Shown piece after piece: positions 10,137 through 19,759 of a DNA stretch of 64,000 nt. The first letter of the stretch is position 1. Every line of letters begins with the position of its first letter. Made by a program: the position numbers and the translations under genes. The notes beneath the pieces were generated by a model that was not told where the DNA came from, did not search any database, and saw nothing but the letters and a program-made list of their open reading frames with translations. Source of the stretch: Haloterrigena alkaliphila (lineage in GTDB: Archaea; Halobacteriota; Halobacteria; Halobacteriales; Natrialbaceae); the NCBI RefSeq assembly GCF_017352155.2, contig NZ_CP071462.1, positions 2,852,001-2,916,000 of the forward strand, written 5' to 3'.

Positions 10137-10613
10137 ATGACCGGATCGACCGACGGCGCCGAACGAGGTGCCGGAACCGACCGCGACGCGGTCGTCGGCA
10201 CCGAACGCGTCCTCCGCGTGGGCCACGACAGGCCGATCAGGATCAGCGCCGGCCATCGAATCCAACACCACGACGGCAAGTGCGCGCGACCCCACGGCCA
10301 CAACTACGAGGTGGCCGTCACCGTCGCCGGCACGCTGACCGAGGAGGGGTGGATCGCCGACAAGGGCGATATTACCGCAGCAATCTCCGAGTGGGACCAC
10401 ATGTTCCTCCTCGAGGCCGGCGACCCCCTGATCGAGGCCTTCGAGGCCGCCGGCGACGACGACGCCGTCGTCGTCCTCGAGCACCCGCCGACGGCCGAGG
10501 TGATGAGCGTCGTCCTGGAGCGAAAGCTCGCGGCCGCGTTGCCCGATACCGTCACGGACGTCGCGGTGCAGGTCAACGAGACGAGCGAACTCTGCGGGGG
10601 GAGCGAGCTCTGA
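10137..10613 (+). CDS. queD: 6-carboxy-tetrahydropterin synthase QueD
   Basis: 158 aa. Zinc-binding histidines and the catalytic region are seen in SAGHRIQHHDGKC and RPHGHNYEV, followed by WIADKGDI and WDHMFLLE, all typical of the 6-pyruvoyl-tetrahydropterin synthase/QueD family. It converts dihydroneopterin triphosphate to 6-carboxy-tetrahydropterin, the first committed step to preQ0, which in archaea becomes archaeosine at tRNA position 15. The family ends with a conserved Glu motif, here VNETSELCGG. It is first of three genes with queE one base downstream. Confidence 0.92.
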   Translation: MTGSTDGAERGAGTDRDAVVGTERVLRVGHDRPIRISAGHRIQHHDGKCARPHGHNYEVAVTVAGTLTEEGWIADKGDITAAISEWDHMFLLEAGDPLIEAFEAAGDDDAVVVLEHPPTAEVMSVVLERKLAAALPDTVTDVAVQVNETSELCGGSEL

Positions 10614-10614
10614 G

Positions 10615-11421
10615 ATGCCGGTTTCCGATTCCGTCGATTTCGACCCGGAAGTCGATGCCGACGGCGATACCACCAGCGAGGAGACGCCGGACGGCCTGCC
10701 GATCAACGAGTTGTTCTACTCGCTGCAGGGCGAGGGAACGCTCGCCGGCGTTCCGTCGGTGTTCGTCCGCACGAGCGGCTGTAACCTCCGATGCTGGTTC
10801 TGCGACTCCTATCACACCTCCTGGGAGCCGACCCACGCCTGGCTGGACCGCGAGCAGATCCTCGCGGAGATCGAGTCCCACGACGCCGACCACGTCGTTC
10901 TCACCGGCGGCGAACCCCTGCTCCACGAGGCGAGCGTCGACCTGCTCGAAGCCCTCGAGGACCGGGACTATCACACCACCGTCGAGACCAACGGGACGAT
11001 CCACCGTGACGCCCCGATCGACCTCGCCTCGATCAGCCCGAAACTCGAGAGCAGCACGCCGACGCCCGAACGAGCGCCCGAGGGTGAGGGCGCCCACGCG
11101 GACCGATGGGCGGAGCGCCACGAGAACGATCGCATCGACCTCGAGGCCCTGGCCGCGCTGGTCGAGGACTACGAGTTCCAACTGAAGTTCGTCGTCACCG
11201 ACGAAGACGACATGCCGGAGATACTCGACCTCCTCGAGGCACTCCGCGGCGTCACCGACGCGCCGATCGGCGACGACGACGTGCTCCTGATGCCCGAGGG
11301 CGCGACCCGGGAGCGCCTCGCGGAGACCCGCACCCGCGTCGCCGACCTCGCGATGGAGTACGGCTTCCGGTACACGCCGCGACTGCACGTCGACCTCTGG
11401 AACGACGCGCCCGAGACGTAA
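10615..11421 (+). CDS. queE: 7-carboxy-7-deazaguanine synthase QueE (radical SAM)
   Basis: 268 aa. The cluster motif is SGCNLRCWFCDS (CxxxCxxC), preceded by the substrate loop SLQGEGTLAGVPSVFVR. VVLTGGEPLL and the strand TVETNGTI follow, as in QueE. The enzyme contracts the pterin ring to 7-carboxy-7-deazaguanine with S-adenosylmethionine and a 4Fe-4S cluster. Residues about 1-25 are an acidic extension. An acidic insert (about 145-165) before the conserved KFVVTDEDDM strand is common in haloarchaeal forms. Confidence 0.93.
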   Translation: MPVSDSVDFDPEVDADGDTTSEETPDGLPINELFYSLQGEGTLAGVPSVFVRTSGCNLRCWFCDSYHTSWEPTHAWLDREQILAEIESHDADHVVLTGGEPLLHEASVDLLEALEDRDYHTTVETNGTIHRDAPIDLASISPKLESSTPTPERAPEGEGAHADRWAERHENDRIDLEALAALVEDYEFQLKFVVTDEDDMPEILDLLEALRGVTDAPIGDDDVLLMPEGATRERLAETRTRVADLAMEYGFRYTPRLHVDLWNDAPET

Positions 11422-11442
11422 TCACCCGACTCGATCACGACC

Positions 11443-12174
11443 ATGACTGACGCAACCGCCGATACCACGACCGACGAACCGTCTTCCGAGCGCGCCGTCG
11501 TCCTCCTCTCGGGTGGCATGGACAGCGCCACCGCCGCCTCCGAGGCTCGCAAACGAGGTTACGAAATTTACGCCCTCCACACCTCCTACGGCCAGCGAAC
11601 CGAGGACCGCGAACTCGAGTGTGCCCGCCGACTCGCCGACGAACTCGACGCCGCCGACTTCCTGCGGCTCGAGACCGGACACCTCTCGGCTATCGGCGCC
11701 TCGAGTCTCACCGACGACGAGCTGGCCGTCGAGGACGCCGATATGGCGAGCGACGAGATTCCCACCTCGTACGTCCCCTTCCGGAACGCGAACCTGCTCG
11801 CGATGGCCGTCTCCTACGCCGAGGCCAACGACTGCGAGGCCGTCTTCATCGGCGCCCACAGCGAGGACTTCTCGGGGTACCCCGACTGCCGGCCCGAATT
11901 CTTCGAGGCCTTCGAGCGAGTGGTCGACGTCGGGACGAAACCCGAGACCGAAATTTCGATCGAGGCACCGTTCGTCGAGCACTCGAAGACTGACATCGCC
12001 CGGCGCGGCGTCGAACTCGAGGTACCGTACGAACACACCTGGAGCTGTTACTGCGAGAACGAACCCGCCTGCGGCACCTGCGACGCCTGTGCGTACCGCC
12101 TGCAAGCGTTCCAGAACATCGACGTCCGCGACCCGATCGAGTACGCCGAGCGGCCGTCCTACGCCGACGACTGA
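11443..12174 (+). CDS. queC: 7-cyano-7-deazaguanine synthase QueC
   Basis: 243 aa. The PP-loop LLSGGMDSATA binds ATP. YVPFRNANLL and the C-terminal zinc knuckle (WSCYCENEPACGTCDACAYR, four Cys) are diagnostic of QueC. It converts the carboxyl group of CDG to the nitrile of preQ0 using ammonia and two ATP. It follows queE by 21 bases. ArcTGT and ArcS, the later archaeosine enzymes, are not in the window. Confidence 0.95.
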   Translation: MTDATADTTTDEPSSERAVVLLSGGMDSATAASEARKRGYEIYALHTSYGQRTEDRELECARRLADELDAADFLRLETGHLSAIGASSLTDDELAVEDADMASDEIPTSYVPFRNANLLAMAVSYAEANDCEAVFIGAHSEDFSGYPDCRPEFFEAFERVVDVGTKPETEISIEAPFVEHSKTDIARRGVELEVPYEHTWSCYCENEPACGTCDACAYRLQAFQNIDVRDPIEYAERPSYADD

Positions 12175-13473: not shown

Positions 13474-13588
13474 GGCCGGTCGTACGTCCCGCGCGGTGTT
13501 AAACCCGCGAGTCGTGACACCGGACGCCGCTATACTCCGTCGGATCGGCGGCGTCGGCTGCGTCCGGTGGCGCGTGGGGACGGACCCG

Positions 13589-13891
13589 TCACGCACCCCC
13601 GAAATCGACGTTCTCGATACCCGGACCGTCCGACAGCCGGTCCCGCACCTCGCCGGCGACGCTCGCCTCCGCGCGGACCGTGACCGTCGCGGTCACGACC
13701 GTCGCGGACAGCCGCGGCTCGATTCCGCGGAGGCCGTCGACGACGACCTCCGTGACGCCGTCGACCGCTCCCAGCCGGCGCTCGACCTCGAGCGCCAGAC
13801 CGCCGTCCGCTCCGTTCGGGACCCGCACCGTCGCGACCGCGGCGTGTCCGGTCGATTCCACATCGTCGTCGGTGGTACTGAGCGCAGTCAT
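13589..13891 (-). CDS. small hypothetical protein, about 100 aa
   Basis: 100 aa. The ATG at 13891 is preceded by a strong Shine-Dalgarno GGAGGTGA six bases away, unusual in this window and the reason for choosing this start. The protein has an alternating pattern resembling two beta-alpha-beta units (AAVATVRVP, then a helix LALEVERRLGAVDGV, TEVVVDGL; later SATVVTATVTV with helix EVRDRLSDG), a ferredoxin-like or HMA/ACT-type fold, but lacks CxxC. I do not recognise it. The aberrant tRNA gene lies just upstream on the same strand. Confidence 0.6.
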   Translation of the reverse strand: MTALSTTDDDVESTGHAAVATVRVPNGADGGLALEVERRLGAVDGVTEVVVDGLRGIEPRLSATVVTATVTVRAEASVAGEVRDRLSDGPGIENVDFGGA

Positions 13892-13954
13892 CGTTTCACC
13901 TCCGCGTGGAGCGCTCGTCGCGGACGGCGGCCCGTCACGCGAGCGGTTCCGCAG

Positions 13955-14031
13955 TGCTCCCGGGGGGGAATCGAACCCCCGACCTCCAGCTCGAAGGGCT
14001 GGCGTCTCTCGCCACCGGAGACTCCGGGAGC
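13955..14031 (-). tRNA. tRNA-like gene, anticodon loop UUC (Glu?), non-canonical
   Basis: All four stems pair on the minus strand: acceptor GCTCCCGG/CCGGGAGC (8 bp as written), D-arm GTCTC/GAGAC with GG in the loop, anticodon CCAGC/GCTGG with loop CCTTCGA, T-arm GGGGG/CCCCC with loop TTCGATT, discriminator A. The loop centre reads UUC (glutamate). Departures from canonical tRNA are an 8-bp rather than 7-bp acceptor (13-bp acceptor/T helix), C instead of U33, and no U8. The G7 run at 13962-13968 could hide a one-base sequencing error that would restore a 7-bp stem but not U8 or U33. Confidence 0.6.
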
Positions 14032-15009
14032 CGGGTCGGCGGTCGGTTCGGTGCAGTACGTGACGGGACGGCCCGATTCCGGGGCCGGTCCGTCGCGGAG
14101 CGGCGTCCTCCGGCCGCCGAGGGCCGGGAATGGGCACCGGTTCGTGCAGGTCGTAGTCCCTTCCGGGACCCTCGCAGTCACCCGGTCGGGGACGGTCGTC
14201 CCGGTCGGGCGAGTCGGTGCCTGTCTCGATGCGCATCCCTCGCGGGCTTCGTCGTCGGGTCTCGATCTCGCGGTTCCGGCGGCGAGACCCGAACTGAACG
14301 GGGCCACGGCTACTCGCGTACCGCGTGGACGGCAGCCGGCGCGCCGACCGAGCCGGCGGCTCGATCGCTACCGGCTCGCGGTGTCGCCGTAACCGAAATC
14401 GAGATGCCGCGAGCGAGGTCGACAGCGAACGACGGCGATGACGCTGTGCCTCGCGAGCGGCGCGCCCGTCTTCTCCGGCCCCGGACGGGTACTCCGTGTG
14501 GGGGCCGGATTATGCGGGCAAGTGGATCAGACGATCCCGAGACGGGTCGCCAGTGTCTGAGTACTGGACCAGTTCGGATACCCGAGATCGTCCGGGGTTC
14601 CCACGGGTTCGCGGCGTTCGAGCCCGCCGAAACCGTGCGTCACGGCTCGAGTCGAAAGAAGCGAGCGGAGCCGTGGCGCGGAGCGAGCGGTCACGTGGGA
14701 TCACCTGAATTCGTTGTGCGCGTCTGAAGACTTCGTTTCGATGTCACTGGTGCGATCTCCTTAACTGTGCTTTGGGTATGATACACACACTCATATCGGT
14801 CGGCTCCGAACGGTACTCGTCGACCCGACTCGAGGGGACGAGCGGTCGAGCGTCCCGGTCGGACGACCGCGCGCCACGGGCGAACGGTGCGGCGACCCAC
14901 GGGCCGTCCCGCCCGCGGAATTACCTGCCGAGCGACCAGTCGCACTGACAGTAGTCGAACATGACACGTGCCGTATGGTTTGATTGGGATTGACACGCAA
15001 GGTTAGGGT
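14032..15009. other. 978-base stretch without a supported gene
   Basis: Open frames exist on both strands but none has haloarchaeal protein character; they are arginine/proline-rich readings of GC-rich DNA. A short plus-strand frame 14496-14708 (MWGPDYAGKWIRRS...) is the least unlikely. AT-rich bases 14755-14800 and 14960-15000 may carry the promoter of the secreted protein at 15010. No repeat shared with the rest of the window was found. Confidence 0.5.
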
Positions 15010-16110
15010 ATGAACCGACGACGCTTCATCGCGTTCACCGGTGGGGGAATCGGCACTGCGGGCGTCGGTCCGGCGACGACATCCGCACAGGACGATCCGG
15101 CGCTGTTCGAGGTCGCGACCGCGCGGACGAGTTCGCCGGTCAACGGCGGCGACCTGCTCGAGGTGACGGCGATCATCGAGAACGTCGGCGACGAGACGGG
15201 GACGACCGACGTCGAACTGATCGTCGGCCACACGCCCGAAGTCGAGGACAGTCGAACCCTGACGCTCGCGCCCGGCGAACGCCAGCGGCTCACGCTCGAG
15301 TTTCGGGCGGGGCAGCCGTCGGGCGGGCGCGAGGAGTTCCCGGTCCGGGTCGATACGGGTGCCCACGAGGCCTCCGAGAGCGTGGTCGTCACTGCGGACG
15401 GCGGCGATCCCGGTGAGGGGGTGACGTTCGACGCCTGTACGCAGGCGCGGCTCACCGGAACGTTCGAGGACGGCTATCCCTGCTACGCGAGCACGATCTT
15501 CTACACCGAGTCGGGGGTCGGCAACACGATCATCGAGGACGGGATCACCGTCGGCGAGGACGTCGACGCGCCGTTCACGGGGACGATCGTCGTCCGGATC
15601 TCGGACGACTCGCGCGTGATCGAGGACGGTGACCGAATTTACGTCGACGTTCCCAATTACGGCGAGTACGGCACCGTTCTGACGGGGCTGACGACCGACG
15701 AGGAGGACTATCGGGTCGCCGGCACCACCCACGGCAACCCCCACGCCGAGGGCTGTCTCGAGGAAATCAGGTCGCGGTGGGAGGACGCCGTCGGGCAGGG
15801 TGACTCGGATCCGGCGCTGTTCGAGGTCGCCTCGGTCTCGACGAACTCCCCGGTCGGCCCCAACGAACTGCTCGAGGTGTCGGCGACCATCGAGAACGTC
15901 GGGGACGAGGCGGGCACGACCGACGTCGAACTGGTCGTCGGCCACTCGCCCGAAGTCGAGGACAGCCAAACACTCACGCTCGATCCGGGCGAGTCGGCGG
16001 CTATCACTCTCGAGTTCCGCGCCGGGACCCCCTCCGGCGGCCGCGAGGAGTTCCCCGTCAGGGTCGATACCGGCGCCCACACGGTCACCGAGATGGTGGT
16101 GGTCACCTGA
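15010..16110 (+). CDS. Tat-exported protein with two CARDB-like domains
   Basis: 366 aa. MNRRRFIAFTGGGIGTAG is a Tat signal (RRRF), probably cut near the SAQ at residue 27. Residues about 28-130 and 266-366 are near-identical immunoglobulin-like CARDB domains (both contain LLEV, ENVGDE, GTTDVEL, FRAG, SGGREEFPVRVDTGAH), joined by a different 135-residue domain with four spread cysteines (DACTQ, YPCYA, EGCLEE). The duplication is also clear at DNA level. CARDB domains act in cell-surface adhesion. No lipobox or C-terminal anchor is seen, so it may be released or surface-associated. Confidence 0.8.
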   Translation: MNRRRFIAFTGGGIGTAGVGPATTSAQDDPALFEVATARTSSPVNGGDLLEVTAIIENVGDETGTTDVELIVGHTPEVEDSRTLTLAPGERQRLTLEFRAGQPSGGREEFPVRVDTGAHEASESVVVTADGGDPGEGVTFDACTQARLTGTFEDGYPCYASTIFYTESGVGNTIIEDGITVGEDVDAPFTGTIVVRISDDSRVIEDGDRIYVDVPNYGEYGTVLTGLTTDEEDYRVAGTTHGNPHAEGCLEEIRSRWEDAVGQGDSDPALFEVASVSTNSPVGPNELLEVSATIENVGDEAGTTDVELVVGHSPEVEDSQTLTLDPGESAAITLEFRAGTPSGGREEFPVRVDTGAHTVTEMVVVT

Positions 16111-16133
16111 TTTCCGAGATGGCGGTCACCTGA
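16090..16133. repeat. short tandem duplication of the CARDB gene's end
   Basis: GAGATGGTGGTGGTCACCTGA, containing the stop at 16108-16110, is followed by GAGATGGCGGTCACCTGA at 16116-16133. Further CGGTCACTC words recur to about 16200. It looks like slippage or a local duplication just behind the coding end; bases to 16376 hold no gene. Confidence 0.65.
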
Positions 16134-16376
16134 GAGGGGTTCTCGCGCGCCGATCACTCGGACAGGTCGGCGGTCACTCGGTGGGGATCCAGCGGTCACT
16201 CCGCGTCGAATTCGGCCGTCGGCCAGGGCGGTCGTGCGTCGGCTACGGGCAGTTGTGTGTCGGCTATGGGCGATCGACCGTCGGGTCCACGCTGTCGGGG
16301 TCCGAACGCGGCGGCCGCTCGGCGCTGCCATCGGCGAGAAAAATCGATCGTCGGTCGTCGGCGTCGAGTACCGGGC

Positions 16377-17021
16377 TCAGTCGTCGCCCGTGGCGACGTC
16401 TTCCTCGTCGACGTCGACCGCGGTCGCTTCCTCTTCGGCGACTTCCTCGGGGTGGGCCTCGAGCGTCGCCTTCTGGATCTCGACGCGTCGAAGCGGGTAG
16501 ATCGTCTTCGCTTCGCCGTAGATCGCCGAGGAGAGCCGGCCCTCGACGACGCTGTCGATGAGTTCCTCGAAGGAGCGCTCGGCGGCGGCCTCCTCGATCA
16601 TCTGGACCATCTGCTCGCGGATGGCCTTCTCCTGGCTCGCGTCGGCCTTCTTGGTCGTGAAGGCGACGGGCTGGATCTGGACGCGGTAGTCGTCCGTCGT
16701 GAGGACGGTGACGTAGGCCTCGATCTTCGAGGCGCCGCGGCGGACCAGCGAGCGCAGGTAGTCGCGGGTCAGCGAGTGCTCGACGAACTCCGTGTACGCC
16801 GAGTCGCTGCCGACGTCGGTGACCTTGAAGGTCAGCTTCGTGTTGTTCTCGCTGGCGTTGTTGTTGAGGTCGCCGAGCGTCGTTTCGATGGTCCGGTCGT
16901 AGACTTTCTCCGGTTCGTCAGCGGGGGTTTCACCGAGTTCCTTCCGGTCGAACTGCTCCGGTGCCAGGATGGTGTACCACCGCTTCTCCTGTTTCGCGCG
17001 TGAAACTGATCGTTCACTCAT
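16377..17021 (-). CDS. rps3ae: 30S ribosomal protein eS1 (S3ae)
   Basis: 214 aa. The N-terminus SRAKQEKRWYTILAPEQFDRKELGETPADEPEKVYDR and the central RDYLRSLVRRG...VTVLTTDDYRVQI are characteristic of the archaeal/eukaryotic small-subunit protein eS1. It has the usual acidic haloarchaeal C-terminal tail. It is the last gene of a four-gene minus-strand operon, overlapping pcc1 by four bases (ATGA). Confidence 0.97.
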   Translation of the reverse strand: MSERSVSRAKQEKRWYTILAPEQFDRKELGETPADEPEKVYDRTIETTLGDLNNNASENNTKLTFKVTDVGSDSAYTEFVEHSLTRDYLRSLVRRGASKIEAYVTVLTTDDYRVQIQPVAFTTKKADASQEKAIREQMVQMIEEAAAERSFEELIDSVVEGRLSSAIYGEAKTIYPLRRVEIQKATLEAHPEEVAEEEATAVDVDEEDVATGDD

Positions 17022-19026: not shown

Positions 19027-19759
19027 TGGTGAGGATAGGAACCGCACTGACCGCTCCGATAGTGTGACAGTCGCGGCTGCGACTGCCCGTGCACTTCCGC
19101 AATCCCAAGCCACTCTGAACAGCGAATGGCGCAGTCAGATTTGCGGCCGTGCGCTTCCCATGCGTTTCTTCGTTCGGACGGACTAAAGGATTTCTACACT
19201 GGTTTCCTCGAATTCTCGAATCGGCCGAACGGTGCTCGAGAGTCGATTACTGTCCCGCAAACACCACGAAAGCCCCTGCCGCTATCGAGTCGGGCGCCTC
19301 GCTGCGCGTGGTTCGAGAGAGCTTCGCTCTCTCGTCATCACGAAAGACGCGAAGCGTCTTTCGAACGCCTTCGCTCACTTCGTTCGCTCCAGTGCTTGCT
19401 TCGTCGACCTTCCTCGATAGCGGCAGCCCCTTTCATTCCCGCCCGTGTCGGCTGGCCGGTCATGCCACCGTAGGGTGGGAATGAAAGGGGCTGACGCGTG
19501 CGTGGCGGCTTCGCCGCCACGTTATTGGCGGTCGGCTCCGCCGACCGCCCACTCGATCCCTCCCGGGCGACGGTGAGCCGAACGAAGTGAGGCGAACGTC
19601 GGAAGACGAGTGAAGCGAGTCTTCCGGAATAAGCACGCGACCGTAGGGAGCGCGCGCAGCGAGCCCCGGAGGGTCGAGCGCGTCAGGGGCTTTCGTGGTG
19701 TTCTCGAGAGATCCAGTACTGAAAGAATGGAGTGCGATCGCGGTCAATCGAGTGACCGA
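19027..19759. other. 733-base intergenic region, mostly palindromic repeat
   Basis: Bases 19027-19240 should hold the promoter of the ribosomal operon (reading leftward) and show no gene. Bases 19260-19702 are the palindromic mosaic described separately. The last part precedes the 3' end of the acyl-CoA synthetase gene. Short frames here are readings of the repeat, not genes. Confidence 0.6.
19260..19702. repeat. 443-bp palindromic repeat mosaic with terminal inverted repeats
   Basis: The ends are a 19-bp perfect inverted repeat (AACACCACGAAAGCCCCTG at 19260-19278 and its complement at 19684-19702). Inside, CTCGATAGCGGCAG (about 19414-19427) complements the GCCGCTATCGAG by the left end. CAGCCCCTTTCATTCCC complements GGGAATGAAAGGGGCTG about 50 bases later. 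Smaller hairpins include GTGGCGGC/GCCGCCAC and GGCGGTCGG/CCGACCGCC. No transposase is present. The GAAAGGGGCT word recalls intergenic repeats I know from other haloarchaea; function unknown. Confidence 0.8.

Follow-up and report, generated by a model that had tools for sequence, protein, structure and literature searches.

Clusters of tRNA genes carried on plasmids or in chromosomal islands of haloarchaea are the closest described systems to the locus reported here. In the available part of the survey by Morgado and Vicente (2019, PMC6333295), a TROVE gene was found in 20 of 29 such clusters, the tRNAs were termed pseudogenes in almost all clusters, and an array was defined by at least 10 tRNA genes at a density of at least two per kb. 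Salmonella has an operon, rsr-yrlBA-rtcBA, that combines Ro60 and RtcB with a tRNA-like Y RNA and is induced by tRNA fragments; tRNA cleavage there occurs mostly in the anticodon loop, and its authors raised the possibility that the tRNA-like RNA inhibits the nuclease by competition (Hughes et al. 2020, PMC7790460, accessible portion). Phage tRNAs with altered anticodon loops were proposed, in the text accessible from van den Berg et al. (2023, PMC10264068), to evade the anticodon nucleases of the host. It is an old question why mobile elements should carry dozens of redundant, often odd tRNAs. Burroughs and Aravind, in 2016, reportedly argued for the arrays as belonging to RNA-repair conflict systems.

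We consider it almost certain that a gene in the DNA analysed here (the window, a stretch of 64,000 nucleotides from Haloterrigena alkaliphila) is the tRNA-Glu(UUC) of a mobile haloarchaeal tRNA-array/RNA-repair island. Judged from its sequence, the locus is a collapsed, collinear array locus in which two structured RNAs (E1 and E2), one tRNA and a small gene with predicted ferredoxin-like fold are retained. The features concerned are as follows.

13511..16391, no strand: insert that the remaining five genomes of the genus lack or have in different form (synteny comparison)
14659..14787, minus strand: stretch weakly similar to, and collinear with, the sequence preceding E1 in one of the full arrays (local BLAST, E 0.001, 67.9% over 137 columns)
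14449..14528, minus strand: conserved structured RNA E1, heading the locus and built of three stacked helices (covariance model, pairing, covariation)
14127..14239, minus strand: conserved structured RNA E2, in full arrays placed between tRNA-Asp and tRNA-Pro/Ser (covariance model, covariation)
13955..14031, minus strand: array-type tRNA-Glu(UUC) gene (ARAGORN, Rfam RF00005, fold, array homologues up to 94% identical)
13896..13903, minus strand: Shine-Dalgarno-like motif GGAGGTGA before the small gene (spacer comparison by eye)
13589..13891, minus strand: small protein gene of 100 amino acids, intact open reading frame, homologue of the gene after TROVE in full arrays (tblastn to array and reduced loci)

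The insert is flanked by a glycerol-1-phosphate-dehydrogenase-like gene and by ribosomal S3Ae. Across the genus, these flanks lie between 136 bp and about 3 kb apart; the genome under study has the 2.8-kb insert in this gap, of which the array-derived part extends over approximately 13530-14790. The pieces matching arrays keep the array order and orientation: 14525-14457 (E1), 14239-14090 (E2), the tRNA and the gene at 13589-13891. A CARDB-domain protein (15010-16110 of the window) adjoins the array remnant, and a similar stretch (75%) is found elsewhere in the same genome (C1:3372438-3373067). As regards the clusters of PMC6333295, in the part of that paper available, the tRNA bodies and their order are shared, as is the setting in plasmid or chromosomal islands, whereas the window locus presents itself as a reduced chromosomal derivative with one tRNA, far from the array definition, and no TROVE. 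The homologous tRNA body and the order of the flanking elements (E1, E2, tRNA-Glu, small gene) place the locus with the haloarchaeal TROVE islands; the TROVE gene itself is absent from the whole genome. No member of the rsr-yrlBA-rtcBA set (Ro60, Y RNA, RtcB) is present at the window locus. The Salmonella operon, as the accessible portion of PMC7790460 describes it, ties Ro60, the tRNA-like Y RNA and RtcB to tRNA damage in the anticodon loop; full haloarchaeal loci differ from it in holding whole tRNA arrays, and the window locus in being devoid of a repair enzyme. With TROVE, RtcB and a Y-RNA-like element all missing, self-sufficient repair at the window locus is impossible, which counts against the spare-or-decoy account given below.

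The tRNA-like gene, noticed earlier from the sequence alone, is real. ARAGORN calls a tRNA-Glu(ttc) at 13954-14031, and the Rfam tRNA model (RF00005) gives 32.2 bits against a gathering score of 29, the lowest among the 46 tRNA matches of the genome (next lowest, 44). The minimum free energy (MFE) fold of -43.8 kcal/mol (z -3.05; equalled by none of 200 shuffles) stacks an 8-bp acceptor on a 5-bp T-stem and forms D and anticodon stems as well, bearing out the perfect pairing of all stems stated in the earlier note. The other particulars of that description can likewise be read in the sequence: a 5-bp anticodon stem closes the loop CCUUCGA, hence C33 and anticodon UUC; position 8 is G in place of U8; and the variable loop has 5 nt (AGGUC). 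The gene thus lacks both U8 and U33 of a canonical elongator tRNA-Glu. The T-loop is standard, the discriminator is A, and CCA is not encoded. No clear archaeal promoter was seen in the window before the gene. Homologous matches over 77 nt at 82-94% identity in many genomes exclude an origin by chance.

At E 1e-4 or better, homologues of the tRNA were found in 35 of 392 genomes of the order, its own included, with a best match of 94% over 77 nt; the stems show no decay in relatives. The homologues examined in detail lie inside dense arrays (10 to 14 tRNA genes within 3 kb, for instance), where the tRNA-Glu(UUC) homologue sits just upstream of a Ro60/TROVE gene, and plasmid records carrying a homologue include Natribaculum, Haloplanus, Halorussus, Halosimplex, Halobaculum and Natrinema. 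TROVE occurs in 37 of the 392 genomes and in 30 of the 35 that have a tRNA homologue. The other five genomes of the genus gave no relative of the window tRNA, the sole match (L002, 77% over 56 nt) falling within a thiolase-like coding region and being attributed to chance. Short matches of 26 nt in Vibrio plasmids were also judged to be chance. The tRNA-Glu of Halogranum tailed virus 1 (HGTV-1; KC292026) is related to the window gene (82% over 59 nt), a weaker match than those from arrays on plasmids and chromosomes (up to 94%). A viral source of the locus was rejected, the tRNA pattern and the E1 pattern each having 0 matches in viral_contigs.

Comparison within the array family separates the ordinary from the peculiar in the window gene. 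G8 occurs in 25 of the 27 array Glu-UUC genes scored, the other two (L148, L149) being unrelated, U8-bearing tRNA bodies that occupy the Glu(UUC) slot; the position-8 tally is unreliable where ARAGORN starts one base early or the choice of offset slips (a tRNA-Gln reading G8 was scored as A), and it is relied on for Glu-UUC only. Other array Glu-UUC copies also score low with the Rfam model (L147, 38.1; L273, 38.3; L255, 37.7; L153, 36.4; L259, 34.5), and the absent U8 and the low score appear as traits of the array Glu-UUC family. The earlier reading of an orphan tRNA with a special role, or of a tRNA gene lost to translation, comes near to the context now found, that of a stray member of a tRNA-array/RNA-repair island, but the missing U8 on which it partly drew is commonplace in the family. 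Of 30 distinct array Glu-UUC sequences, 28 have U at position 33, one has C and one has G; the set includes one tRNA-Lys body with UUC anticodon and leaves outside it the C33 copy L058. C33 is rare. U33 is absent from 27 of 360 array tRNAs scored, as against 0 of 42 host genes (U33 in all 42, U8 in nearly all), and its loss in array tRNAs would fit a non-standard use. One array (L268) has a tRNA-Lys body with UUC anticodon, and it was noticed that array slots seem to keep or gain the anticodon while the tRNA bodies change (L148, L149, L268).

The two RNA elements were modelled from 14 (E1) and 16 (E2) sequences, window copies excluded. The E1 model recovers the window copy in a search of its own genome at 81.6 bits (E 5.7e-18), the E2 model at 47.6 bits (E 3.4e-7); in the order they match 43 and 37 of the 392 genomes, respectively, and neither returned a locus from the five remaining genomes of the genus. 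Covariation is strong: pairs changed on both sides number 8 of 16 in E1 (slid controls at most 4) and 15 of 33 in E2 (slid controls at most 5), with 0 of 500 shuffles as high in either case, controls that are indicative, the alignments being fitted to the models and the sequences related. The window E1 forms 16 of 16 pairs. The window E2 forms 25 of 30. It is more diverged than any other copy: its nearest relative has 61.9% identity, whereas for all the others a neighbour exists at 72.4% or above; in full arrays (L144-L153 and others) the element is about 140 nt long. Rfam contains no match for E1 or E2. The exact E1 pattern was met in 32 stretches of genome_contigs, all in records titled haloarchaea. 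A pseudoknot considered for E1 was dropped, its covariation being explained by the nested three-helix fold, and E1 as a DNA operator is disfavoured: the frequent G-U pairs of helix 2 point to RNA.

For the small protein, 30 distinct sequences were gathered, and the window copy keeps the conserved motifs. AlphaFold2 (pLDDT 77) predicts a beta-alpha-beta-beta-alpha-beta arrangement, that is, a ferredoxin-like fold. Pfam gave no match above the cut-off, and the fold search against solved structures gave no PDB match at E 0.001 or below, with TM-scores of at most 0.50 among the matches listed, so the predicted assignment extends to the fold class. The motif GGAGGTGA recurs in the spacer between tRNA-Gly and the small gene of arrays.

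How the window locus relates to its full counterparts is seen from a census of E1. The order search returned 48 E1 places, 47 of them confirmed by a second method (G316 was not). TROVE is present in 33 of the 47 confirmed loci, all 33 of which have E2, with tRNA-Glu(UUC) called in 29; the usual full order is E1, Gln, Asp, E2, Pro/Ser and others, Glu(UUC), Arg, TROVE, Gly, small gene. Three further E1 loci are cut by contig ends (G306a, G363, G323). The remaining 11, the window among them, are reduced loci without TROVE, and the small gene was found in 9 of these; L230 and L234 are further reduced loci among the named records. One of them is G060, with E1, E2, one tRNA-Glu(UUC), the small gene and RtcB, the RtcB-like gene (L214 3861-5333, minus strand) following the small gene directly. 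Its tRNA has the body of the array Glu(CUC) gene (about 90-93% identity) in combination with the UUC anticodon. The locus of G124 comprises E2, tRNA-Ser, a broken tRNA, the small gene and, after it, an RtcB 44% identical to that of G060; G135 keeps four tRNAs and G381 two. Six reduced loci are without array tRNA (L217, L218, L220, L279, L280, L281) and have E1 placed 89-376 nt before the small gene, an arrangement that suggests E1 as the leader element of the small gene. Exactly one tRNA is retained in two reduced loci, the window and G060, and in both it is Glu(UUC). A preference for this isoacceptor resting on two loci is suggestive only, given that G124, G135 and G381 keep other tRNAs and six loci keep none.

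Pfam analysis of example proteins confirmed TROVE, which most loci carry, as well as the RlaP and RtcB lying close to some of them. Weak matches to YrlA (Y RNA) occur in two arrays just before tRNA-Arg and TROVE, at L147 4658-4771 (30.7 bits, E 0.0087) and L255 3274-3387 (28.6 bits, E 0.047), and a third array has another (26.5 bits, E 0.18). All stay far short of the gathering score of 69 and are a lead only to a possible archaeal Y RNA.

Based on the collective evidence, the window tRNA is best explained as a spare or decoy tRNA that has survived from an RNA-repair island, an account that, taken as a whole, we hold to be probable. The island would have shrunk on its own chromosome to E1, E2, tRNA-Glu and the small gene, with TROVE and all other tRNAs lost. 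E1 would stand first in a single transcript that also takes in E2 and the tRNA and reaches into the small gene, and the tRNA would be released as a spare or nuclease-insensitive tRNA-Glu that lets the cell or plasmid tolerate cleavage in the anticodon loop. C33 and G8 could then lower the ordinary decoding use of the tRNA, or its cleavage, while the fold stays intact. A role of array tRNAs as spares or decoys in RNA-damage tolerance is drawn by analogy with the Salmonella operon and the phage tRNAs. The latter, as set out in the available text of PMC10264068, share with the array tRNAs the extra gene copies and the anticodon-loop changes proposed to withstand a nuclease; they differ in belonging to bacterial phages, and position 33 is not discussed in that text. 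Retention of some RNA-level function by the window locus appears on balance somewhat likely, whereas the spare/decoy mechanism as such is put forward tentatively, as plausible though short of probable.

The main rival understands the locus as a decaying relic, a piece of an array island left after deletion, in which the tRNA is recent enough to look intact and is unexpressed or unused. The loss of TROVE and of all other tRNAs would agree with it, as would the strong divergence of the window E2 with 5 of 30 pairs broken, C33 and the one-base insertion in the tRNA, the lack of an obvious promoter before the tRNA, and the fact that the locus is missing from the other five genomes of the genus. 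Decay is, however, not what one sees in the tRNA stems, all of which pair, in E1 with its complete pairing, or in the small gene, whose reading frame is intact, with conserved motifs and the Shine-Dalgarno-like motif; moreover, a second single-Glu(UUC) locus exists elsewhere (G060). Identity to the nearest relative is 94% for the tRNA, 75% for E1 and 62% for E2, and divergence of the two elements so far beyond that of the tRNA is unpredicted by unselected decay. Since tRNA, E1 and E2 each have their nearest relative in a different locus, the tRNA may also have been exchanged between loci at a later time, and such an exchange would give the same pattern. The relic reading is taken seriously as a possibility that we nonetheless doubt. 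Use of the gene simply as a second tRNA-Glu(UUC) for decoding is quite improbable: the UUC anticodon, the intact T-arm and stems and the Glu-type first acceptor pairs shared with the host tRNA-Glu genes would suit it, yet ordinary tRNA-Glu genes, UUC and CUC, are present elsewhere in the genome, and C33 departs from all 42 host tRNAs scored and G8 from nearly all. Selenocysteine tRNAs and allo-tRNAs are characterised by a helix of 12-13 bp formed by acceptor and T-stem and by a long variable arm, with the anticodon UCA in the case of selenocysteine. The likeness to these proposed in the earlier note arose from the 8-bp acceptor, which together with the T-stem (8 + 5 bp) indeed reaches this helix length in the window copy. 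It forms only through one C more than in every aligned array relative, the run being CCCCCCC in the window copy and CCCCTC in the relatives, whose acceptor has 7 bp; within the alignment, no sequence but the window copy has the extra C. With the eighth pair in no relative, a short variable loop, the anticodon UUC, plain tRNA as the best Rfam model for 13955-14031 and no recognised partner gene adjoining, the likeness is abandoned, and a special tRNA with 13-bp helix, or the dedicated aminoacyl donor also envisaged earlier, for which specific support is lacking, is barely credible. The eighth pair could itself reflect a sequencing or assembly error in the seven-C run (G on the plus strand), considering that the sole indel relative to the relatives falls in a homopolymer. 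A T-to-C substitution at the same place speaks against such an error, which we deem unlikely and which, if real, leaves the remaining account unchanged.

The window tRNA is thus no new tRNA class; it is its context that deserves study. TROVE-bearing arrays are already published, and the reduced loci together with E1 and E2 are apparently undescribed parts of a known kind of system. Searches of the open-access literature, judged from listings, abstracts and selected passages, brought up no account of E1, E2, the small gene or the reduced loci, and the available part of PMC6333295 presents no description of E1, E2 or the small gene. The locus shows that unusual tRNA predictions on haloarchaeal chromosomes can go back to such islands and need not mean new tRNA classes. 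Two structured RNAs, one tRNA and one small gene offer a small, testable version of the question posed by the arrays, and the E1 and E2 RNAs provide experimental handles on the locus. A wider proposal, speculative and in our estimation rather improbable, would see a haloarchaeal RNA-damage-tolerance family built on E1, E2 and a small ferredoxin-fold RNA-binding protein, with the tRNA array as variable cargo and with minimal forms keeping a poorly decoding tRNA-Glu(UUC) as the isoacceptor targeted by a putative anticodon nuclease.

Near the locus, at 10137-12174 of the window, lie queD-, queE- and queC-like genes of 7-deazaguanine synthesis, queC recognised by Pfam and the other two by eye. An S15-Halobacteria ribosomal protein leader at 19091-19161 (minus strand, 72.3 bits) is ordinary.
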